From Anaerolineaceae bacterium (GTDB taxonomy: Bacteria; Chloroflexota; Anaerolineae; Aggregatilineales; Phototrophicaceae), in NCBI GenBank assembly GCA_007693385.1, contig REDR01000048.1:33176-97175 (forward strand): a stretch of DNA of 64,000 nt, read 5' to 3'. Made by a program: the position numbers and the translations under genes. Every line of letters begins with the position of its first letter. Position 1 is the first letter of the stretch. The notes under the pieces are model-generated. The model ran no database searches and had not been told where the DNA came from. It worked only from the letters and a program-made list of their open reading frames with translations. This document shows positions 21,958-56,653 of the stretch, one piece after another.

Positions 21958-22746
21958 ATGAAAGTAATCTCTTTGTTGAATGAAAAAGGCGGCGTCGGCA
22001 AGACGACCATCGCCATGCATCTGGCGGCGGGGCTGGCGGTTCGCGGTTATCGCACCCTGTTGATCGACGCTGACGCGCAAGCCAACGCCACCGCCGGACT
22101 CGGCCTGCCGGAAGCGCCCGGATTTTATGATTTGCTGGTGCGTCAAGCCAACTGGAACGATCTGTTGCGCGTGCTTCCGGCGGAGATGTACGAGCCGCCG
22201 GACACCCCCGCTAAAGGACTTCTGGCGATGTTGCCGGGCAACGGCGAGACACAGCTGATCGCGCAGAAGATCGACGACGCCTACGCCATCTATGACCGGC
22301 TGGCGGAACTGGAAGACAGTATCGACGTGGTGGTGTTCGACACATCGCCGACGCCCTCGCTTTTGCACGGCGCGATCTATCTCGCGACGGACGCGATCCT
22401 GTACCCGACGCTGTGCGAGACGTTCAGCCTGCAAGGGTTGATGAAAACCATGAAGCATCATGAGAGCTTCGCGGAGAATCGCAAAGCGCAGACCGGACGC
22501 ATGATCCACACGCTGGGCATCGTGCCGACGATGTACCGCGCCAAGACGGTTGAACACAGCGAGAACCTGAACGAACTACGCGGGCGCTTCGGCAATCAGG
22601 TATGGGACCCGCTATCGTTACGCATCACATGGAGCGAAGCCAACACGCTCCGCCGTCCGGTGTTCAGCGTCGCGCCGAACAGTCAGGCCGCGCATGAAGC
22701 ATGGGGCGCGGTAGACCGCGCCATCCGGGAGATCAGCTATGTCTAA
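21958..22746 (+). CDS. parA: ParA/Soj-type partition ATPase
   Basis: 262 residues. The deviant Walker A is in LLNEKGGVGKTTIAMHLAAG, switch I is in DADAQANATAGLG, and Walker B is VVVFDTSPTPSLLHGA. The length without an N-terminal helix-turn-helix places it with the short ParA class (type Ib plasmids and chromosomal Soj). The ATPase forms gradients on DNA to segregate replicons, together with a ParB. The next gene, a ParB-like protein, overlaps its stop by 8 nt. No gidA, gidB, dnaA or rnpA, the usual neighbours of chromosomal parAB, is present. Confidence 0.9.
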   Translation: MKVISLLNEKGGVGKTTIAMHLAAGLAVRGYRTLLIDADAQANATAGLGLPEAPGFYDLLVRQANWNDLLRVLPAEMYEPPDTPAKGLLAMLPGNGETQLIAQKIDDAYAIYDRLAELEDSIDVVVFDTSPTPSLLHGAIYLATDAILYPTLCETFSLQGLMKTMKHHESFAENRKAQTGRMIHTLGIVPTMYRAKTVEHSENLNELRGRFGNQVWDPLSLRITWSEANTLRRPVFSVAPNSQAAHEAWGAVDRAIREISYV

Positions 22747-23974
22747 GCGCGAGCAACGCCGTCAGCAAGGGGCGGCATGGACTGACCAGACCACCGACGA
22801 AGGGCGCAATGCGTCGTCGTCTTTGCGCGATGTGACCGCGCAGGGCTACGGCCTGAACATCGCGCCGAATCAGCAACGCATCATCGCCAAGCCGGTGTCC
22901 ATCTTCGACATTCAGCCCGATCTCGCCCAGCCGCGCCGCACCATTCCCTCCAGCATCCGCACCGCATGGGACGGCGATCCAAAAGGCGTCAAAGCGCTGT
23001 TCATGGTGTGGTGGGGCGAAGTCCAGCGCGAGCGCGGCGAAGCGGCGGGCAAGGACGAACTGCCGTTTGATCTGGGCGCGTATCTGGAAAGCGGGCAGAC
23101 CGAACGCACAGCCGACGAAGACGCCACGCACGAAGCATCCGGGCCGCTAGAGCGTAGCCTGCTACAGATCACCATGCTAGCGGCCAGCATCCGCCGCGAC
23201 GGGCTGATTAATCCGGTGACGGTTGAGCAGGGCAAAAACAGCCGCTACCGGCTGGAAACCGGCGAGCGTCGCTGGCTGGCCTATCACCTGCTCCATGCGT
23301 GGTTTGACGGCCACGACGGGCGGCCTGATGAGCGCGAAGAATGGGATACGATTCCGGCGCGGGTGGTGGAAAAATTCGACGTGTGGCGGCAAGCCAGCGA
23401 GAACAACGCCCGCGACGATCTCAACGGCATCGGCAAGGCGCGGCAGTTCGCGGTGTTGATGATGGACTTGCGCGGCATGGAAAACTTTCGCCCGTTTTCC
23501 GCGTTTGAAAACGAGCAGGATTATTACGCACAGGTCGCGGAGATGGCGTCGCCGTATGGCTCGCGGGAGCAGTTGCTCAACGCGCTGGGCATCAACAGCC
23601 CGTCGGTTTTAACGCGCCTGCGCCACTTCCTACGCCTGCCGCATGAGATATGGCGCGGCGCGGATGATTACAATCTGTCGGAGGAAATATTGGAAGAACT
23701 TTACGGCATCGCCAGACAGGATGTCGATAAGGCGATCCAGCGCTTCCGCGAGATTATTCATGTAAAGAACGTTCGGATTCAGTCCGGCCAGACCAAGCGC
23801 AAAGCGCCACCCACCGAGCCCGGCACGCGCCGTCATTTCACGCTGGTCTTGCGGATGATGAAGCAAGCTGGCAAGGGCAAAAAACAGTCCAACCAGCAGG
23901 CGCTCAAGACGCTGGCGGAACTGCGCGACTGGGTGGATGAACAGGAGCGAATCATCCGCAAGCTAGACTCCTGA
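22739..23974 (+). CDS. parB: ParB-like partition protein
   Basis: 411 residues. The ParB N-terminal domain is recognisable in pieces: PDLAQPRRT (box of the DNA clamp entry), SIRRDGLINPVTVEQG, the nucleotide-binding-like TGERRWLAYHLL, and ENNARDDLNGIGKARQF, equal to the ENxxR box. Between the first and second pieces about 100 residues are inserted, including an acidic stretch after GQTERTADEDATHEAS. A helix-turn-helix follows (EQLLNALGINSPSVLTRLRHFLRLP), then a basic linker and a C-terminal helix probably used for dimerisation. It should load on a parS-like site and activate ParA. No classical parS palindrome was spotted in the window. Confidence 0.85.
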   Translation: MSKREQRRQQGAAWTDQTTDEGRNASSSLRDVTAQGYGLNIAPNQQRIIAKPVSIFDIQPDLAQPRRTIPSSIRTAWDGDPKGVKALFMVWWGEVQRERGEAAGKDELPFDLGAYLESGQTERTADEDATHEASGPLERSLLQITMLAASIRRDGLINPVTVEQGKNSRYRLETGERRWLAYHLLHAWFDGHDGRPDEREEWDTIPARVVEKFDVWRQASENNARDDLNGIGKARQFAVLMMDLRGMENFRPFSAFENEQDYYAQVAEMASPYGSREQLLNALGINSPSVLTRLRHFLRLPHEIWRGADDYNLSEEILEELYGIARQDVDKAIQRFREIIHVKNVRIQSGQTKRKAPPTEPGTRRHFTLVLRMMKQAGKGKKQSNQQALKTLAELRDWVDEQERIIRKLDS

Positions 23975-24166
23975 GCGCCCGCCCTATCGCCGGATTACTC
24001 CGTGATAAGTGCCCCGCCCCACCCCTACCCCATCAGCGCGGATGACCGCCGGATTCACGCCTCCCCCGCCTGAATCTTCGCCTGAATAGCGGGTAGGGCG
24101 GGCGGTGGGGTAGGGCAAGCCGGATTACTCCGAAAACCACTTATCACTCCCGAAATCACTTATCAC
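23975..24166. repeat. Repeat-rich junction between convergent parB and primase-polymerase genes
   Basis: A 14-nt direct repeat GCCGGATTACTCCG occurs at 23989-24002 and 24119-24132. CACTTATCAC occurs at 24138-24147 and 24157-24166 (direct, 19 nt apart, within a wider CCGAAA-YCACTTATCAC unit) and inverted at 24002-24011. GGGGTAGGG at 24107-24115 pairs with CCCTACCCC at 24023-24031. The last CACTTATCAC lies across the stop of the minus-strand gene. It could be an iteron/parS-like site or a two-way terminator. Confidence 0.5.
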
Positions 24167-26285
24167 GATACTTCGCATGTGCCCGCAACCACACCGCCAG
24201 ATAGCCCGCCGGATTGCGAATCGAGCGCCCGCCATCGACTGATTTTTGCAACGAGCGCACCCCCCAATCGACCAGCCGCCCGCCATATTTTTCGACCCAC
24301 TTTTGCGCCGTCCGGCGCGTGACCGCGTGCGCCGGATCAAGCGCCCGCAATGCGCTGTACAGTCGTTCGGCCATGCCATCATTTGCCGACTGCGGCGCGG
24401 CCTCCGGCGCCGGTTGCGGTGTGGACGGGCGGAACGTTCGCGGCGGGATGACTCCACCGCGCCATGCGCCATCGAGCGCGGGTGCGGGCGCGTTCTGATC
24501 GCGTGCGACGGATGGCGTCGGTGCAGAATTGACGGGCGGCGCGGCGATGTGGTGGAACAGCGATTGCGGCGGGTGTGGCGTCGCCGGAATCGGCGCGGGC
24601 GGCATCGCGGCGGGCTGGTCGGCGATCCGGTAATGGTTGGGCTGTTGCGACAGCAACGACACGCGGCGTCCGGCGCGTAATTCACGGCGGGCGATCTCAC
24701 GGCGCGGCGGGTAACGCTTGCCCTTTTCCGTCAGCAGAAATTGACCCCATATCGGCGTATCAGACAAGGCGGCATTCACCCCGCGCTGACTCAATGGTGT
24801 CTCGTGGTAGCACGGCGTCGCCATCACCCCGCACGCACGTTCATAGCGGCGGCAGGTGGTCGGGCTGACGTTCAGCCGTCGCGCTTGCCAGTGGCGGGCG
24901 TACTGTCCGGGCGCACGGCGGATCAATGCGGTGTGCAGGGCGGCGCGGTACGCGGCGGGCGTGCGTAGGTCGTCGGGCGCGATAGTATCCGCGCCGCGCA
25001 AGGGCACGCCGAGCGCATCGCATAGCGCGGTGATCGACGGCATCACGAAGCACAGATGCGGCCTGCCGCGTCGATTTTTTACCGGCTCTGCTACCCTACC
25101 AAACAGGCATTGTTTGGTCTCATCCGCGTAGCGCTTAACAGCGTTAGCATATTTAGAGGGTGGGGTGCGGGGAGGGAGAGATTTCAGCAAGCGCACCGCC
25201 GCGTAGATCGCATTGCGTCCGACGCCGTGCGGCGCGAGCAGGCGGTAAACTTCCGGGGCGTTGAGCAGGCGTCCGGCTTCCACACCGAGCAGAAGCAAGC
25301 CGTCCAACATGCGGGCGACATTCGACCAGCCCCGCGCCAGCAAAGACTCGCGGGCGCTGTTGGGCAGTTGCTCCGGTTCGGTTCGCGGCTTGGCGGGACG
25401 CGGACGCGGCGCTTGACTGAACGCGCTACGGATAGTGCGTTCGGCTTCGGCGTGGCGGCGGGTGGCGGCTTCCGGCGGGTGATCGCCATTCGGCGGTTGC
25501 GCCACATGATCGGGCGTCAGCGCGTCGCAAACTTGAAACTCACCGTAGCCAACATCGCGCCCATAGCGGGCACAGGTGAACAGCGCGTTGTTGCGTCCGA
25601 TGCGCGGCGCGAGATGCTGATACAGCCGTCGCAGATCGCCCAATGATACCGAATCGCGGTTGAGTAGGTCAGGAGTCAGGTCTACGGGCGCTGAATCCGG
25701 CGCTGTGGCGCGATTTCCGGCGTTTTCTGGCGTTTTGCGCCTGATTGTACTGATAAAGCGCGAAATGCGGCTTAAATCGGCTTCTGTGAGTTTTTTGGGC
25801 GGCGCACCGTTGACAACCGCCCACACCTTGCCATTGATGCGCGTATTGGGCGCGACGACATATTGACCATCGCCGCGCAATTCGATGCCGAGCGTCTGCT
25901 GGCCGCGCACCGTCAGATCGCCGATGGCGTAGTAGTAGTGCGGCAGGCCGCGATTGCCGGAGCGCACCGTGAAGGTATCGAGCAGATCGGGGAAGGCGTC
26001 GCGGAAGGCGTCGCCGATTTCGTCGCTGTCGATGTCTACCACGACCACGCCGGAAGCGCGGCCTAACACCACGCCATACGCGCTGAAATAGTCGTGATTG
26101 AGCCATTGGTCATATTCGGCGGGGGTGGGCTGGCGGCGCATGTAAACCGCCCATGAGCGCAACGCGGGCGCTTTCTCCGCGCCGCGCATCAAACCACCGT
26201 TGAGCGGTATCAGTGACCATCCGAGCGCCTGCAACGCCGCTAGATTCTGCCGGATGTCGGTGGTTGTGTGTAGCAGATTAGACAT
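24156..26285 (-). CDS. Primase-polymerase (AEP superfamily) replication protein
   Basis: 709 residues. The N-terminal 190 residues carry the bifunctional primase-polymerase signature: VVVVDIDSDE with metal-binding Asp84 and Asp86, then RSGNRGLPHYYY with His116, and GIELRGDGQYVVAP near 133-146. The centre (about 310-480) looks like helical DNA-binding modules, including a GVGRNAIYAAVRLL segment. A Pro/Ala-rich linker (about 560-630) leads to a C-terminal helical domain ending in NPAGYLAVWLRAHAK, reminiscent of DnaD-like replication proteins. No helicase motifs are visible. Such proteins start replication of plasmids, phages and integrated elements. It is convergent with parAB. Confidence 0.85.
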   Translation of the reverse strand: MSNLLHTTTDIRQNLAALQALGWSLIPLNGGLMRGAEKAPALRSWAVYMRRQPTPAEYDQWLNHDYFSAYGVVLGRASGVVVVDIDSDEIGDAFRDAFPDLLDTFTVRSGNRGLPHYYYAIGDLTVRGQQTLGIELRGDGQYVVAPNTRINGKVWAVVNGAPPKKLTEADLSRISRFISTIRRKTPENAGNRATAPDSAPVDLTPDLLNRDSVSLGDLRRLYQHLAPRIGRNNALFTCARYGRDVGYGEFQVCDALTPDHVAQPPNGDHPPEAATRRHAEAERTIRSAFSQAPRPRPAKPRTEPEQLPNSARESLLARGWSNVARMLDGLLLLGVEAGRLLNAPEVYRLLAPHGVGRNAIYAAVRLLKSLPPRTPPSKYANAVKRYADETKQCLFGRVAEPVKNRRGRPHLCFVMPSITALCDALGVPLRGADTIAPDDLRTPAAYRAALHTALIRRAPGQYARHWQARRLNVSPTTCRRYERACGVMATPCYHETPLSQRGVNAALSDTPIWGQFLLTEKGKRYPPRREIARRELRAGRRVSLLSQQPNHYRIADQPAAMPPAPIPATPHPPQSLFHHIAAPPVNSAPTPSVARDQNAPAPALDGAWRGGVIPPRTFRPSTPQPAPEAAPQSANDGMAERLYSALRALDPAHAVTRRTAQKWVEKYGGRLVDWGVRSLQKSVDGGRSIRNPAGYLAVWLRAHAKYRDK

Positions 26286-26318
26286 CGTTATCCCGCCTTT
26301 CTACACGGGAAAAACGTG
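26286..26318. other. Short leader of the primase-polymerase gene
   Basis: Contains the AAAGGCGGG ribosome-binding site for the minus-strand gene, and a weak ACACG/CGTGT hairpin at 26303-26319. Confidence 0.4.
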
Positions 26319-26347
26319 TTGCCAAACAGCCTTTTGAGCGCTATACT
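26319..26347 (+). promoter_or_regulatory. Near-consensus sigma-70 promoter for the candidate RNA
   Basis: TTGCCA (5 of 6) and TATACT (5 of 6) with the ideal 17-nt spacer on the plus strand, 34 nt behind the start codon of the divergent primase-polymerase gene. The predicted start point near 26354 coincides with the first base pair of the RNA's closing helix. Confidence 0.75.
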
Positions 26348-26353
26348 CGTAGT

Positions 26354-26590
26354 AGTAATTTGTGTGCGTTAAACCTCACTTTCAGGGTGCGGTAATACAC
26401 ACAAACGTTCAAAACAACGTAGTTTGGATGTCCGGCGTCCGAGCCGCTAAAACCGGTTCGGATAACCGCAATCACTTTCGATAGTTATCAGCTAAAGCTG
26501 TCTCTCGTGCGTGGGTTCGCGATGCCGGATGCCCGCCCGTAATTCTGTTTGGCGGCGAAACCACACGAATTACGGGCTTTGCTTTTTTTA
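26354..26590 (+). ncRNA. Candidate structured non-coding RNA of about 235 nt
   Basis: Between a near-consensus promoter and an intrinsic terminator lies a non-coding stretch with nested helices. P1 is 26355-26366 with 26562-26573, 12 bp including one G-U pair, joining the 5' and 3' ends. P2 is 26388-26393 with 26465-26470 (TGCGGT/ACCGCA). P3 is 26439-26445 with 26455-26461 (CCGAGCC/GGTTCGG, one G-U). The strand feeding P1 also takes part in the terminator hairpin, so the two exclude each other. It does not match what I know of tmRNA, RNase P RNA or SRP RNA; a 6S-like closing stem cannot be excluded. Being opposite to the replication gene, it may be a counter-transcribed copy-control RNA. That is inference. 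Confidence 0.6.
26535..26588 (+). terminator. Intrinsic terminator of the candidate RNA
   Basis: GCCCGTAATT at 26535-26544 pairs perfectly with AATTACGGGC at 26568-26577; the 10-bp stem has a 23-nt loop. It is followed by TTTGCTTTTTTT. Confidence 0.75.
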
Positions 26591-26840
26591 TACCCCACAC
26601 AAGAGTGCAACTGTGGCCAATACTGACCGAATTTGTTTGCGATCTGGACTCGCACCAAACGTCAGTCGCTGGCTGTGTTGGTCATCGTTTTTCCGTCATG
26701 TCGTCACGTCCTCTAAACAATCATCTAAAATTACGCTTGTCGGTTATCTCATCGCGGATCGCTGATTGCTCTCAAGCGCCGCGCCGGTAGATTGCATTTA
26801 TAGTGCATCTATACAGAATGTTAAATCTTGTCGCAACCGC

Positions 26841-26869
26841 TAGTCAAAATCGCCATTCTGTGTTATGAT
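26841..26869 (+). promoter_or_regulatory. Weak promoter-like pair upstream of palindrome
   Basis: TAGTCA and TATGAT with a 17-nt spacer. The -10 box runs into the palindrome at 26868-26891, so a bound protein there would block the start. Confidence 0.3.
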
Positions 26870-26891
26870 CTATGTCTATTCTGACATAGAT
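26868..26891. promoter_or_regulatory. Perfect 9-bp inverted repeat (operator or hairpin)
   Basis: ATCTATGTC and GACATAGAT around TATTCT. A size and symmetry typical of dimeric DNA-binding proteins; a third TCTATGT half-site follows near 26943. Confidence 0.5.
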
Positions 26892-26903
26892 TGTTGTGCG
26901 ATG

Positions 26904-26938
26904 GCGTGCTGGGTAATACAGCACGTCAATTCTTTTTA
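26904..26938 (+). terminator. Terminator-like hairpin
   Basis: GCGTGCTG and CAGCACGT (8 pairs, one end G-U) around GGTAATA, then AATTCTTTTTA. It could end a short transcript from 26876 of about 60 nt. Confidence 0.5.
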
Positions 26939-27118
26939 TAGGTCTATGTGCTAATTAATCCCCAGATAATCGCACCACAGCATAATCAACGCGCTTTCCA
27001 CAATATACATCACCCTGTCAGATTCCGCAACGGATAGAACAAAACAAACAACGCTTAAATCAAAAACTATAACAGATTCCAAACCTGATTAGACATCTGT
27101 TCTAACTTTCGGCGCGGG

Positions 27119-28585
27119 TCAATGCGCGGTCTGGTACAGATTCCACGCGGCGAAGACGCCGAAAGCGACGGCATAAGTCAGCATGTACGGCGCGAAGGCG
27201 GGCAGATGCGCCAGCGCGATCCACACCCCGCCCAGCGCATACACCGTCAGCAAGCCCTCAAAGAAGGTGACGCCATCCATCGTCAGCCGGTAGTGGCTGG
27301 TCGTCCAGTTTTCGCGGTGGGCGGTGACGCGAAACTTGGGCGTCCGTTTGAATTCATCCGTCTGCTGGGCGGGCAGGAACACGCGCAGGACGGCGACGCT
27401 GTTACTGAGCACAACGGCCACTCCGACCAGCAATTGCGCCGGAAAGTACAGCAGGCGGCGCGGCCAATCGTCATATAGCGCGGCCTGCCCGCACGCGATC
27501 AACAACGGCGGGATGATGCCGAATAGCGATAGGATGCCGGGCGCTGGTAAGCGCTGGAAGAAGCCGCCGAGCAATAGCGGCGGCGCGAGTAAGAACAGGC
27601 ACAGCAAAACCGGCTGGATCAGATATTGGCCGAGATGGGTCAAGCCCATGAACTTTTGCAGGGCGTTATGGCGCGGGCTGGTCAGCAGGTCGTGCAGATG
27701 TCGCCGTAAACATTGCGTGCTACCCGTCGCCCAGCGTGCTTGTTGCGTCTTGTAGGCTTGCACCTGCGGCGGCAATTCGCCGGGCACGGCCACATCACGC
27801 AGATACAGAAAGCGCCAGCCGCGTAACAGGGCGCGATAGGACAGGTCTAAATCTTCGGTGAGGGTGAGCGCAGACCAGCCGCCTGCCGCGTTGATCGCGG
27901 ATACGCGCCAAACCGCGCCGGTGCCGTTCATCGACATCGGCAGTCCGCCACGATTGCGGGCGACTTGCTCGACGGCGAAATGCGCGTCGATGTTGAGCGA
28001 CTGGGCGCGGGTCAGCCAGTTGGTGTCATGGTTGAGGTGGCTCCAGCGCGTTTGCACCATCGCTAAATGCCGGTCAGCGCTGAAATAGGGCAGGGTGCGC
28101 CGCAGGAAATCCGGCGCGGGCACGAAGTCGGCGTCGAAGATGGCGACGCAATCCGTCGTCACATCGCGCAGACCGTAGGCCAACGCGCCCGCTTTGTAAC
28201 CGGTGCGTTCCGCCCGCCGAATATGGTGGATGTTATCGCGGCGCACGTTGTAGCGGCGCAGATCGGCCAGCACATCGGCGATCAAGTCGGTGGTGTGGTC
28301 GGTGGAGTCGTCCAATATTTGAATGTGCAGTTTATCCGGCGGGTAATCCAGCGCGGCGCAAGCGTGCAATAAGCGCTCGACGACGTGCGCCTCGTTGTAG
28401 ATCGGAAGCTGAATCGTGACCGACGGCCACCCCTCCGGCGGGACGGTGGGCGGCGGTGGATCGGCGCGGCGATGCGTCACGTAGATCAGCAAGAGCACGG
28501 TATAGGCCAGCACGTACAGCAGGACGAAGGCGCTAGCCGCGATGTAGGCAAATCCGGCGATTTCCAGCAATATCTGAATAATCAT
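27119..28585 (-). CDS. Processive family 2 glycosyltransferase (cellulose-synthase-like)
   Basis: 488 residues. The N-terminal membrane helix (about 5-32) is followed by the GT2 domain: VTIQLPIYNEAHVV, DDSTDHTT (first Asp), FDADFVPAPDFL (DxD), TEDLDLSYRAL (catalytic TED) and QQARWATGSTQCLRR, equal to the QxxRW motif. Four more membrane helices follow. These features define membrane-embedded processive synthases such as BcsA or CsbB-like glucomannan synthases; the product is unknown. It lies 7 nt after a 39-residue membrane peptide gene on the same strand. No PilZ domain or BcsB partner is seen. Confidence 0.92.
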   Translation of the reverse strand: MIIQILLEIAGFAYIAASAFVLLYVLAYTVLLLIYVTHRRADPPPPTVPPEGWPSVTIQLPIYNEAHVVERLLHACAALDYPPDKLHIQILDDSTDHTTDLIADVLADLRRYNVRRDNIHHIRRAERTGYKAGALAYGLRDVTTDCVAIFDADFVPAPDFLRRTLPYFSADRHLAMVQTRWSHLNHDTNWLTRAQSLNIDAHFAVEQVARNRGGLPMSMNGTGAVWRVSAINAAGGWSALTLTEDLDLSYRALLRGWRFLYLRDVAVPGELPPQVQAYKTQQARWATGSTQCLRRHLHDLLTSPRHNALQKFMGLTHLGQYLIQPVLLCLFLLAPPLLLGGFFQRLPAPGILSLFGIIPPLLIACGQAALYDDWPRRLLYFPAQLLVGVAVVLSNSVAVLRVFLPAQQTDEFKRTPKFRVTAHRENWTTSHYRLTMDGVTFFEGLLTVYALGGVWIALAHLPAFAPYMLTYAVAFGVFAAWNLYQTAH

Positions 28586-29398: not shown

Positions 29399-30607
29399 GT
29401 GTCCCAAGATAAACCCAAACAGAAACGACGCGGCAAGACACCGTCCAGAAAAGAGGTGTACAGCCCGGAGGAGATGCAGATTCGCAAGGTCGCCTCTGAG
29501 GTTGCCAATACGCTGGGCGAAAAAGATCGTAAACCGTACGGACAGATTGCGGCATTGGTGCGAATGCGTGGCGAGGACTTCATCCGTGAAGTGCTGGCCG
29601 ATACGCTACAGATCGAGGCGCAGGGCGGCATGATGACCGCGAAGGGCGACAGACGGCGCACAATCGGCGGCGTGTTCTTCCGGTTGGCGCGGGAACGCCT
29701 GACCCGCAATGAAGGCCTGTTGATTTTCGCTCGCGGTGACGTGTCGAAACTTAAACGCGCCAAATCTGAAGCGCAATTTCCCGCTTTCACATGGGATGAT
29801 CGCGCAGAGGTCATCCATAATTTGAAAAATCAGGAGCAGGGAGAGGTATCGGACGTGAAGATCATCTTGCAAGGACATCCTAAGTCAACGGAACGGCGCG
29901 AAAATCTGGTCATCCTGCGTATGCAACACGATCTCGACAAAATCCCGAATATGCCGCGAGGTGTACCTGATCCGGGCGATAAAGCGATGCCGTACACGGT
30001 GATCGTCAACTCAGAACAATATGAAACCGCCGAAGCCGCCATTCAGAAAGACCCCAAAGACGAGCTTCACATCGAAGGGTTTGCGGCGTATGACGCGGAG
30101 ACATCCGATATTGTGGTGTTTGCGACGCGAGCGATCACCCGAAAGATACACAAACAAGAGCGCCGCCGCGAACTCGAAACGATGGTGAAGCAGACGCAAG
30201 AGGCGCAACAACGCAAAGAGATCGCCAAGCAGAAGAGCGACGAGAACCGGCGTAAGCAGTTAGAAGCCAACGCCAAGAAGAAGGAGCAAGCCGCGCCCTC
30301 ATCAGCAGGCGAAGCAGTCAAGCCGGAGGGCAAGAACGATGTGCCGTTCGCGCCGGTACGCATGGGCGAGAGCGCCCGCGCCGAACGCACCATCGAAGAA
30401 TTCAGCGCCGAGCCGCCGCCGCATCTGGACGCGGAAGCCGCCAAGAAATACGCCGATCTTCTGCGGGCGGAGGCCACATACCGCCAGCGCATCGCCGACA
30501 TCGAAGCCAAGCCGGAAGATCAGCGCTTCGGGCTGGAGATGACGCTTAAACTATTGACCAGCATCCAGAAACAGATCAAAGCGCTGGTCGATCAAACCGA
30601 CGAATAA
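29399..30607 (+). CDS. PHAX RNA-binding-domain protein
   Basis: 402 residues from a GTG start preceded by AGGGGGGAA. Residues about 24-105 match the RNA-binding domain of the eukaryotic snRNA export adaptor PHAX: VASEVANTLGE, PYGQIAALVRMRGEDFIREVL, DTLQIEAQGG and the hallmark RRRTIGGVFFRLARERL. Residues about 165-245 form a second, unrecognised beta-rich domain (PYTVIVNSEQYETAEAA, DIVVFATRAITRK). A charged coiled coil follows (250-295), then a linker and a helical tail (DAEAAKKYADLL). The family domain binds single-stranded RNA; a role in bacterial RNA handling is inferred. It stands alone with its own promoter. Confidence 0.8.
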   Translation: MSQDKPKQKRRGKTPSRKEVYSPEEMQIRKVASEVANTLGEKDRKPYGQIAALVRMRGEDFIREVLADTLQIEAQGGMMTAKGDRRRTIGGVFFRLARERLTRNEGLLIFARGDVSKLKRAKSEAQFPAFTWDDRAEVIHNLKNQEQGEVSDVKIILQGHPKSTERRENLVILRMQHDLDKIPNMPRGVPDPGDKAMPYTVIVNSEQYETAEAAIQKDPKDELHIEGFAAYDAETSDIVVFATRAITRKIHKQERRRELETMVKQTQEAQQRKEIAKQKSDENRRKQLEANAKKKEQAAPSSAGEAVKPEGKNDVPFAPVRMGESARAERTIEEFSAEPPPHLDAEAAKKYADLLRAEATYRQRIADIEAKPEDQRFGLEMTLKLLTSIQKQIKALVDQTDE

Positions 30608-54256: not shown

Positions 54257-54281
54257 ATCGCCCGCGCCGTCACGGGGCGAT
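54257..54281 (-). terminator. Hairpin at the recJ end
   Basis: ATCGCCC and GGGCGAT pair over 7 bp around an 11-nt loop right at the recJ stop. The following AATTTT is 25 nt away on the minus strand, so termination is uncertain. Confidence 0.3.
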
Positions 54282-56653
54282 TACGACGGTTGGAACGGGA
54301 TACCGAGAACGGCGGAAGCGTCACTGCGTTGATAATAGGCGCGGTAGGCGCGGGCTTCGGCCAGCCAGCCCATCAATGCCGATGTCGTCGGCTTGAGGCG
54401 GTCTTCGATCTGCTGACCGATGCCGCGTCGGATCATGATGCCGTTCTCGTTCGCGCCGTCGATGTGGATATGGCCGCGTACCGCCAGCCAGTCCATACCG
54501 GCGCGGACGGCCTCCGCACGATGCGCCATCGCGCCGCCAAGCGCCAGCCATGACGCCTGCCCGTCGTAGACGTTGAGCGTGTACTCCGTGATTCCCGCCA
54601 TGCGCTTGATGAAAATTTGCAGAGAATCGACGGCGGGCGATACCGCGAACAGCGTGACCACCTCCGGATTGACCGTTTCGAGCGCGGCGGATAGCACATC
54701 CGGCGCGGGCGGCGCTGACCAGATCACCAGATGGCGGGCGGGGCGGAGTACATCACGTTGCACCGCGCCGGGGGGCTGTGTCGCGCCTTCCGCCCAGATC
54801 AGCACATCGTCGGCGCGGATCGCTGATAACTTTTCGGCGCTGGCCGTCGCGTCGAGGTGGCGATAATCCGCGCCGCGTAGCGCTTCGCGCTGGCTGAACG
54901 TCTCCGGCGCTTCGTCCACAGCGCGGAAATCAATCAGTGTGGCCTGCACGGTGCGCTCGCCGCCGAATTCGTTGATCCCCACTTGATAGGCGATGTCGAG
55001 GCGGCCTTTGGGCAGGGTGTCCGGCTCCGCCCGCCACCACAGGATTTCTTGCATCTGCTCGGCTTCGTCGCTGAGCAACAGCCGCAGATGATCGCCGGTG
55101 CGCCCGATGCGCCGCGTCGAACGCTGTGTCGCCCGTAGCGTGGCGAATACCGGCTGGGGATTGCCCGCGCCGAACGGGGCGACCAGCCGGAGCGCATCGG
55201 CCAGCGCCACCGTGACCGCGCTGAACGGGATCACCGCGTCGATAGTGAGCGCGTCCGGTTCGCCGTGCGCGGCCAGCATCTCGCCGACCACGCGCCCCAA
55301 TGCGCGGCGCAACTGCGGCACGCGCTCCGCCGGTAGGCGCAGACCGGCGGCCATCGTGTGCCCGCCGAAGCCGTCGATCATGTCGGGGTGTTCGTCCGCG
55401 ACGCGCTGAATCGCGGCGGTGATGTCACAGCCGGGCACGCTCCGCGCCGAGCCGTGCGCCCAGCCCGCGCCATCATCGGAGAGCAACAGCACCGGCCGCC
55501 GGAAGCGCTCGACCAGCCGGTTCGCCACGATGCCGATGATGCCGCCCGTCCAGCCCGGACGCGCCACGACCAGCGCGGGCGATTCCAATAGTTTGGGGTG
55601 CGCGTCGATGGCGGCGAGCGCGGCGTCGGTGATGCTCTCAGTATCGAAGCGGCGCTGATTGTTGAGCGCCTCAAGCTGGTTGGCGAGCCTGCGGGCGGTC
55701 ACGTCGTCGTCTGTGGTCAGGAATTCGACGCTGGTATTGGCGTCGGCCAGCCGTCCCACCGCGTTCAGGCGCGGCGCGATCTGAAAGCCGATGGTTTGCT
55801 CATCGAGCAGGGCGCGGTTAATTCCGGCCAATTCGTACAGCGCCCGCAATCCCGGACGCGCCGTATCGCGCAGGGCGATCAAGCCGCGTTGGAGCAGATA
55901 ACGCGCATCGCCGGTCTGCACCACGACATCGGCGACGATGCCCAGCGCCACCAGATCGAGGAATTGCGTTTCGCGTCCGGCTTGCCCCCGCGAAGCATAC
56001 AGCGCTTCGATCAGCTTATACGCACAGCCGACGCCGGGCAACGTGTGCAGGGGATGGTCGGCGGGCAGGCGTTGCGGATTCAGCAGGGCGTGGGCGCGGG
56101 GCAGGGTGGGCGGTAGCTGGTGGTGGTCGGTGACGATGACGGCGACGCCGTGTGCCGTCGCGCGGTTGATGGCGTCGTGGGCGCTGATGCCGGTGTCGCA
56201 CGTCAATAACAGGTCGATGCCGTCCGCGATGAACGCATCAAGGCGCGGGATGGCGATGCCGTGCCCTTCGCTTTCGCGCTGGGGGATGTAATAGCGGACG
56301 TTCGCCCCCATCTCGCGCAGGGCGGCGGTCAATAGCGCGGTGGATGTCTGGCCGTCCACGTCGAAATCGCCCCACACCAGCACGCGCCCGCCGTTTTCGA
56401 TGACCGTGTTCAGCCGGTTGACGGCGGCTTCCATGTCGGGCAGGTCATACGGCGAGGCCGGACGATAGGCGTCAGGATCGAGGAAACGGGCGGCGGTGTC
56501 CAGATCGGCGATGCCGCGTCGTGTCAGGATGTCGGCGATAATCGGGGCGACATCGGCGGGCGTATCGGGGGCGATTTCGCGCAGGAGGGCGGCCAGCCAT
56601 GCGGGGGTGTCGGTGGGCGGGGCGATGCGCCATGCTTTGCTGTCGGTCTTCAT
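54281..56653 (-). CDS. recJ: Single-strand-specific exonuclease RecJ
   Basis: 790 residues, typical of long bacterial RecJ. Catalytic motif I is VLVWGDFDVDGQTST near residue 92, and the DHH motif is VIVTDHHQLPPTLP near residue 175. The DHHA1 domain carries FGGHTMAAGLRL near residue 400. A C-terminal extension of about 230 residues, beginning near LIWAEGATQPPG, is the usual RecJ domain of uncertain role. It degrades single-stranded DNA 5' to 3' in recombination and mismatch repair. The receiver and helicase genes follow on the same strand, 148 nt away. Confidence 0.95.
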   Translation of the reverse strand: MKTDSKAWRIAPPTDTPAWLAALLREIAPDTPADVAPIIADILTRRGIADLDTAARFLDPDAYRPASPYDLPDMEAAVNRLNTVIENGGRVLVWGDFDVDGQTSTALLTAALREMGANVRYYIPQRESEGHGIAIPRLDAFIADGIDLLLTCDTGISAHDAINRATAHGVAVIVTDHHQLPPTLPRAHALLNPQRLPADHPLHTLPGVGCAYKLIEALYASRGQAGRETQFLDLVALGIVADVVVQTGDARYLLQRGLIALRDTARPGLRALYELAGINRALLDEQTIGFQIAPRLNAVGRLADANTSVEFLTTDDDVTARRLANQLEALNNQRRFDTESITDAALAAIDAHPKLLESPALVVARPGWTGGIIGIVANRLVERFRRPVLLLSDDGAGWAHGSARSVPGCDITAAIQRVADEHPDMIDGFGGHTMAAGLRLPAERVPQLRRALGRVVGEMLAAHGEPDALTIDAVIPFSAVTVALADALRLVAPFGAGNPQPVFATLRATQRSTRRIGRTGDHLRLLLSDEAEQMQEILWWRAEPDTLPKGRLDIAYQVGINEFGGERTVQATLIDFRAVDEAPETFSQREALRGADYRHLDATASAEKLSAIRADDVLIWAEGATQPPGAVQRDVLRPARHLVIWSAPPAPDVLSAALETVNPEVVTLFAVSPAVDSLQIFIKRMAGITEYTLNVYDGQASWLALGGAMAHRAEAVRAGMDWLAVRGHIHIDGANENGIMIRRGIGQQIEDRLKPTTSALMGWLAEARAYRAYYQRSDASAVLGIPFQPS

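Follow-up and report, generated by a model that had tools for sequence, protein, structure and literature searches.

A predicted counter-transcribed RNA divergent from a PrimPol gene in an Anaerolineaceae bacterium

The PrimPol gene and two predicted small RNAs in its upstream gap

The window, i.e. the whole stretch of 64,000 nucleotides analysed here (G000:C136:33176-97175), comprises the final 64 kb of a 97-kb contig of an Anaerolineaceae bacterium. It carries a gene for a PrimPol protein of 709 amino acids (24156-26285, minus strand), whose sole Pfam match at E ≤ 0.001 is the Prim-Pol domain (PF09250, E = 1.5e-17); a helicase domain is absent according to the Pfam search. Comparison of the protein with plasmid, phage and viral contig collections gave no match, and a PDB sequence search no credible one (best E 0.41). 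From its family and its neighbours, we infer that PrimPol acts as a replication initiator, and it is the predicted target of the RNA described below. The neighbours are the genes of a ParA-type ATPase (21958-22746, plus strand) and a ParB-type protein (22739-23974, plus strand), both recognised by domain search, which lie on the far side of primPol from its upstream gap and are convergent with it. This gap 5' of the PrimPol gene measures 833 bp. Elsewhere in the window, positions 29399-30607 (plus strand) encode a protein of 402 amino acids that matches PF10258 (E = 1.2e-16), the RNA-binding domain PHAX, which takes its name from a eukaryotic RNA export adapter and occurs here in a bacterium.

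The gap contains a predicted counter-transcribed RNA of about 235 nt, designated RNA-A (26354-26589, plus strand, both ends predicted). The promoter-like sequence TTGCCA-17-TATACT, which had been named in a first-pass annotation of this DNA, is present at 26319-26347 (plus strand) as one of three promoter-like sites found by motif scan in 26200-27120 (shuffle mean 1.4), and sites of similar place and kind occur in related loci. The terminator, originally described with a 10-bp stem, is likewise present (26535-26589, plus strand) and consists of an 11-bp stem (26535-26545 / 26567-26577; predicted pair probability 0.97-1.0), a loop of 21 nt and the T tract TTTGCTTTTTTT; the stem lies 181-223 nt downstream of the predicted RNA-A start. 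It is missing from the hairpin scan, because that scan has a loop limit of 8, and was picked up by a separate scan, the scan for promoter-terminator units ending at a weaker hairpin before it.

The segment 26354-26586 has a predicted folding energy of -86.0 kcal/mol, compared to -66.2 ± 4.4 kcal/mol for 200 shuffled sequences, none of which was as low (z = -4.48). The predicted fold starts with a 5' hairpin (26360-26404, plus strand), whose 10-bp helix 26360-26370 / 26394-26404 has a minimum pair probability of 0.81. Earlier, a closing helix between the first bases of the RNA and its 3' region had been proposed, and the 12-bp complementarity of 26355-26366 and 26562-26573 is indeed exact in letters, with one G-U pair; each of the 12 pairs has a predicted probability of 0.000, since the 5' arm is engaged in the hairpin 26360-26370 / 26394-26404 and the 3' arm in the terminator. 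As a consequence of this value, the idea that closing helix and terminator exclude each other and form a switch is unsupported, and the switch was rejected on the pair probabilities. Of two nested helices suggested before, the one at 26439/26455 recurs in the predicted fold as 26437-26446 / 26454-26463, and the one at 26388/26465 (GCGGT/ACCGC) is absent from it. A pseudoknot-like match of 9 bp between GCCAAACAG and CTGTTTGGC was not significant for the window (p = 0.119; test on 20 of 39 loci).

Known families had been said not to fit, and a search of the window against Rfam, which includes a model for the ctRNA of p42d, indeed gave 0 matches at the gathering score for any family, the repABC-ctRNA type included; the lowest sub-threshold E-value in 26250-26700 was 2.6, and twelve loci related to the window gave no match to Rfam models up to E 0.5. 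The 6S-like alternative that had been offered found no support: 6S RNA (RF00013) has no match at the window, its sole match in the genome (86.5 bits) being located on another contig (G000:C5). The bacterial RNase P RNA (RF00010) of the genome is encoded at G000:C21, and ARAGORN detected no tmRNA in the window. RNA-A matches none of the RNA families tested.

On the opposite strand, the PrimPol gene has two promoter candidates. The predicted promoter TTGCGG-17-TATATT (27002-27030, minus strand; pattern search) would give a start at about 26995 and a leader of about 710 nt, and the alternative promoter-like site TTGACT-18-TAACAT is located at 26818-26847 (minus strand; motif scan). Just 5' of the Shine-Dalgarno-like sequence of PrimPol, the leader contains a hairpin with the arms ACACG/CGTGT (26303-26319, minus strand), which is evident from the sequence and is followed by no U tract. 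A second small RNA, RNA-B (26876-26937, plus strand), is predicted from scan and fold to have its own terminator (stem 26902-26928); its promoter-like site, found by motif scan at 26841-26869 (plus strand), reads TAGTCA-17-TATGAT and has a TG ahead of the -10 hexamer, and a counterpart of RNA-B is present in five loci of the genome G061. A leader starting at about 26995 would hold the complements of both RNA-B and RNA-A. Judged by its sequence signals, RNA-A shows one trait of a plasmid ctRNA, namely its own promoter and terminator opposite the leader of the initiator gene, the leader start being a predicted one.

Recurrence beside related PrimPol genes

A DNA search with RNA-A in 98 genomes of the family gave matches in its own genome and in G003 alone, i.e. 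in one of 97 other genomes (53 query bases, 79% identity, E = 4.1e-6). The counterpart in G003 sits at the same place beside its own PrimPol gene and retains the promoter and the terminator region, the latter being the part of RNA-A that the DNA search could align; its body differs, with a local 5' hairpin and a fold z of -3.80. Relatives of the PrimPol protein were found in 67 of the 98 family genomes, with up to ten matches per genome. In a class-wide sample, where at most two candidates per genome were scored, such relatives were detected at E ≤ 1e-70 in 4 of 396 genomes, all from the same family. The 19 named loci belong mostly to Anaerolineae, Anaerolineaceae, Phototrophicales and Chloroflexi metagenome-assembled genomes; three are filed under other groups.

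The position of the RNA recurs far more widely than its sequence. A unit was defined as a promoter-like site whose hexamers are 16-18 nt apart, with a terminator-like hairpin 50-260 nt further on. Of 60 regions 5' of related PrimPol genes, 42 contain such a unit divergent from the gene and 18 fail the scan; the unit occurs in 7 of 1200 sequences shuffled by dinucleotide and in 7 of the 60 regions when the reverse strand is scanned. The loci cannot be counted as independent, seven of them being from G061. The first hexamer starts with TTGC in 33 of the 42 units, and the promoter sites lie about 20-150 nt from the extrapolated PrimPol gene start. Scanned unit lengths range from 59 to 214 nt and are lower bounds, because the scan stops at the first terminator-like hairpin; for the window this gives 194 nt, compared to about 235 nt for RNA-A. 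The position beside PrimPol recurs even between units with unrelated RNA sequences. Among 88 loci, 24 were without a located PrimPol start, namely 20 loci of genus g17 and L038, L090, L092 and L099; the latter four were left out, and the 20 g17 loci were rescanned with another query together with L030-L033 (24 in total), giving a unit in 8 of 24 and failing in 16. The second, remote PrimPol gene of the genome that harbours the window (L103, G000:C67) also has a promoter-terminator unit, with a predicted RNA of 65 nt. The assignment of the RNA to copy-number control, as a transcript counter to the adjacent primase-polymerase gene, which the first-pass annotation had put forward, is supported by this position and its recurrence in related loci.

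The partition genes vary in their arrangement. Among the ParB matches listed for 50 loci, parB precedes primPol in the same orientation in 20 (307-1711 bp between match ends), 14 of which possess a scored RNA unit; it is convergent with primPol in 5, including the window and G003, and downstream on the same strand in 2. For 23 of the 50 loci no ParB was found on the contig among the matches listed, a count that may be too high. In G008:C22 (L065), parA and parB overlap, and 336 bp separate them from primPol, with an RNA-A promoter in this gap on the opposite strand; this locus misses the terminator criterion of the unit scan.

A general score detected the PrimPol promoter only weakly (13 of 40 loci vs 141 of 800 shuffles). 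Of 56 loci, 16, the window among them, have the pattern TTGCG-18-TANNNT 5' of PrimPol on the minus strand, with the plus strand (0 of 56) and shuffles (26 of 2800) as controls; this excess is partly post hoc, because the pattern was chosen after earlier promoter results had been seen, and 5 of the 16 positive loci are G061 paralogues.

Signs of RNA structure and leader pairing in related loci

Covariance analysis of homologous loci had been recommended as a check, and compensatory changes were found in the loci of relatives (G061 and g17), the covariation thus coming from these and not from the window's own locus. Five paralogous loci of G061 can be aligned; they originate from one genome bin (88% completeness, 7% contamination) and are therefore assumed to represent one cell line. 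Their RNA-A and PrimPol promoter hexamers are identical in all five, at spacer identities of 56% and 67%. For RNA-A the stems are 91% and the apical loops 39% identical, and for RNA-B 87% and 42%, a contrast that is somewhat inflated because the stems were derived from the same alignment; such a contrast would fit RNAs that determine incompatibility. Of the 113 pairs in the consensus fold of the G061 leader, 15 show compensatory changes; 42 of 565 cells are unpaired, and the RNAalifold covariation term is just -0.2. In L008, L035, L036, L045 and L053, a terminator-like hairpin is located in the leader consensus fold between the complements of RNA-B and RNA-A; it is a candidate attenuator in this model.

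In genus g17, 19 of 24 loci (L031 and L068-L085) share an alignable RNA of similar layout upstream of PrimPol. In this alignment, from which the structure was also derived, 94.2% of the cells are paired and 46 double changes occur, compared to 14.6 in shuffles, and slid controls reach at most 61.6% paired cells. Eight members scanned gave no Rfam match. The five loci that were dropped as having no alignable RNA (L030, L032, L033, L066, L067) form a subgroup in which several carry short repeats around CTGTATAAATGAT 5' of PrimPol, perhaps iterons.

Pairing within the leader was analysed in the 39 loci with an assigned RNA-A start (left out were L025, L030-L033, L038, L042, L044, L047, L051, L052 and L055, the last being the same place as L040). 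On the leader strand, pairing between a segment adjacent to the gene and a segment within the RNA-A complement is better than in shuffles (p ≤ 0.05) in 18 of the 39 loci, and in 18 loci the segment from the locus itself is among the two best of the 39 possible partners; the test barely discriminates between the strands, because its plus-strand version also exceeds chance (top 2 in 13 of 39). L021 and L022 have exact long-range helices of 18 bp with a compensatory C/G change. A hairpin with a U tract directly before the PrimPol gene is found in 14 of 39 loci, compared to 95 of 1950 shuffles, and in L011, L013 and L021/L022 the long-range helix and the gene-proximal hairpin overlap in sequence. 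In the window, the long-range pairing is at chance level (p = 0.595, rank 21 of 39). Since this match is not significant and a U tract is missing, only antisense repression is inferred for the window.

Comparison with known replicons and interpretation

Several plasmid systems resemble the locus in part. In the repABC replicons p42d and pTiR10, a ctRNA is encoded between repB and repC (PMC3155836, PMC6090056), and in p42d the leader forms a terminator once the ctRNA has bound (PMC3155836). Shared with these replicons are the ParA-ParB genes, the location of a small antisense RNA in the gap that precedes the gene of the initiator, and a leader able to form a terminator when the RNA binds, and the overlap of long-range helix and hairpin in L011, L013 and L021/L022 corresponds to the arrangement of the p42d leader (PMC3155836). 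The repABC order with parB upstream on the same strand is found in the 20 of 50 related loci given above among the ParB matches listed, including the 14 with a scored unit. The differences are that the initiator is here a PrimPol (PF09250) and not RepC, that the RNA measures about 60-235 nt compared to about 50 nt given for the repABC ctRNA, and that parAB converge on primPol in the window, where the order of parB, antisense RNA gene and initiator gene along one strand is absent.

ColE2 encodes a Rep of the AEP type that is governed by RNAI, antisense to the 5' non-translated region of the Rep mRNA (PMC5304414, PMC4538821), and thus also combines a primase-type initiator with a small RNA of this kind; in PMC5862659, however, the ColE2 Rep-like proteins are listed as a family separate from Prim-Pol proper. 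The likeness in sequence of RNA-A and ColE2 RNAI was assessed through Rfam alone. The plasmid pIP501 has a repR leader of about 300 nt, a 136-nt antisense RNAIII and attenuation before the initiator gene (PMC4981023), all features with parallels here, but is a Gram-positive plasmid with a CopR repressor. In pSYSA of Synechocystis, the abundant 153-nt asRNA1 adjoins the gene of the primase-helicase initiator CyRepA1 (PMC9978351), again a primase-type initiator with a neighbouring antisense RNA; asRNA1 covers the small upstream gene ssr7036 in that account, whereas RNA-A would cover the leader, and the window PrimPol is without a Pfam helicase match. For the I-complex RNAI, loop differences of the antisense RNA are reported to determine incompatibility (PMC10724649), and the variable loops found here suggest incompatibility set by loops as well, although the initiator is another one and the pseudoknot-like match of the window is not significant.

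The best reading is that RNA-A is the copy-number RNA of a PrimPol replicon, with a logic close to that of the repABC, ColE2 and pIP501 RNAs. Directly observed are the promoter- and terminator-like signals, which lie opposite PrimPol and recur next to related PrimPol genes, and the adjacent ParA and ParB genes. With a probability of roughly 0.77, 26354-26589 is predicted to encode a counter-transcribed RNA that would pair with the long leader of the PrimPol mRNA and thereby repress this divergent gene. RNA-A would then be transcribed and bind the leader, and more replicon copies would produce more RNA-A and less PrimPol, which would in turn limit copy number. Some of the related loci have a leader that can adopt two alternative structures, a long-range helix, with one arm in the RNA-complementary region, and a gene-proximal hairpin, to which a U tract is frequently added; in these loci, binding of the antisense RNA would cover the distal arm, so that the hairpin could form and either stop transcription or hide the ribosome site. 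As the window hairpin has no U tract, a translational block would be the likelier version in this case. The original observation was in this way partly confirmed and its interpretation partly supported.

A strong fold together with promoter-like and terminator signals of its own would also suit a trans-acting regulatory RNA, e.g. of the 6S type, that merely adjoins the PrimPol gene, and the lack of an Rfam match leaves room for other functions; but 6S and RNase P RNAs are encoded elsewhere in the genome, and the unit tracks PrimPol genes even with unrelated RNA sequences, which is needless for action in trans, so that we regard this reading as very unlikely. Improbable to the same degree is an RNA that is no repressor but assists PrimPol directly at the origin, be it by priming, by serving as template or as a bound cofactor. 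In retron-type layouts, which the locus resembles, a structured RNA adjoins the gene of a polymerase, and transcription near origins can prime replication, yet the length (59-214 nt, about 235 nt in the window) and sequence of the unit vary, and the apical loops are the most variable parts in the five G061 loci. Hairpins and promoter-like sites occur in origins too, and RNA-A is known here from signals in the DNA, so that a divergent promoter and hairpins serving as binding or origin sites, with a transcript devoid of a role, could be considered; this is a shade less probable still in view of the 42 of 60 loci in which the promoter leads to a terminator-like hairpin and of the compensatory changes in G061 and g17, which fit RNA helices but alone are compatible with DNA hairpins.

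Regarding the nature of the replicons, the contig G007:C6 (49,823 bp) has a terminal overlap of 99 bp and is therefore taken as circular; it carries a PrimPol gene with RNA unit, a ParM/Alp-like actin and a D5-type helicase. The contig of the window shows no end overlap, and its genes include a second RecJ as well as AMP-binding enzymes and ABC transporters; for these reasons it may be part of the chromosome or of a large secondary replicon. The second RecJ-type exonuclease gene of the genome is located at 54281-56653 (minus strand), the other copy at G000:C5.

In the literature, no description of such RNAs in Chloroflexota was found by title and start of abstract among the matches listed. Tentatively, and with somewhat less than even odds, the copy-number reading can be extended to a so far undescribed class of Chloroflexota replicons that would combine ParAB or ParM with PrimPol as initiator and with counter-transcribed RNAs. 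Each leader would be the target of two antisense RNAs acting in series, RNA-B at the leader 5' end driving attenuation and RNA-A at the gene start, and fast-changing loops would serve as incompatibility keys that allow five or more such replicons per cell line. If true, this would provide antisense-controlled replicons for a hardly cultured phylum, for which the matches listed contained no such description, and the logic of repABC (partition pair, small antisense RNA, initiator) would have been rebuilt around an unrelated initiator. A divergent promoter, mostly TTGC-17-TA, and a terminator before PrimPol would also offer a search rule for replicons with a PrimPol that goes unmatched in plasmid and phage collections, and the elements may serve as vector parts for Anaerolineae.
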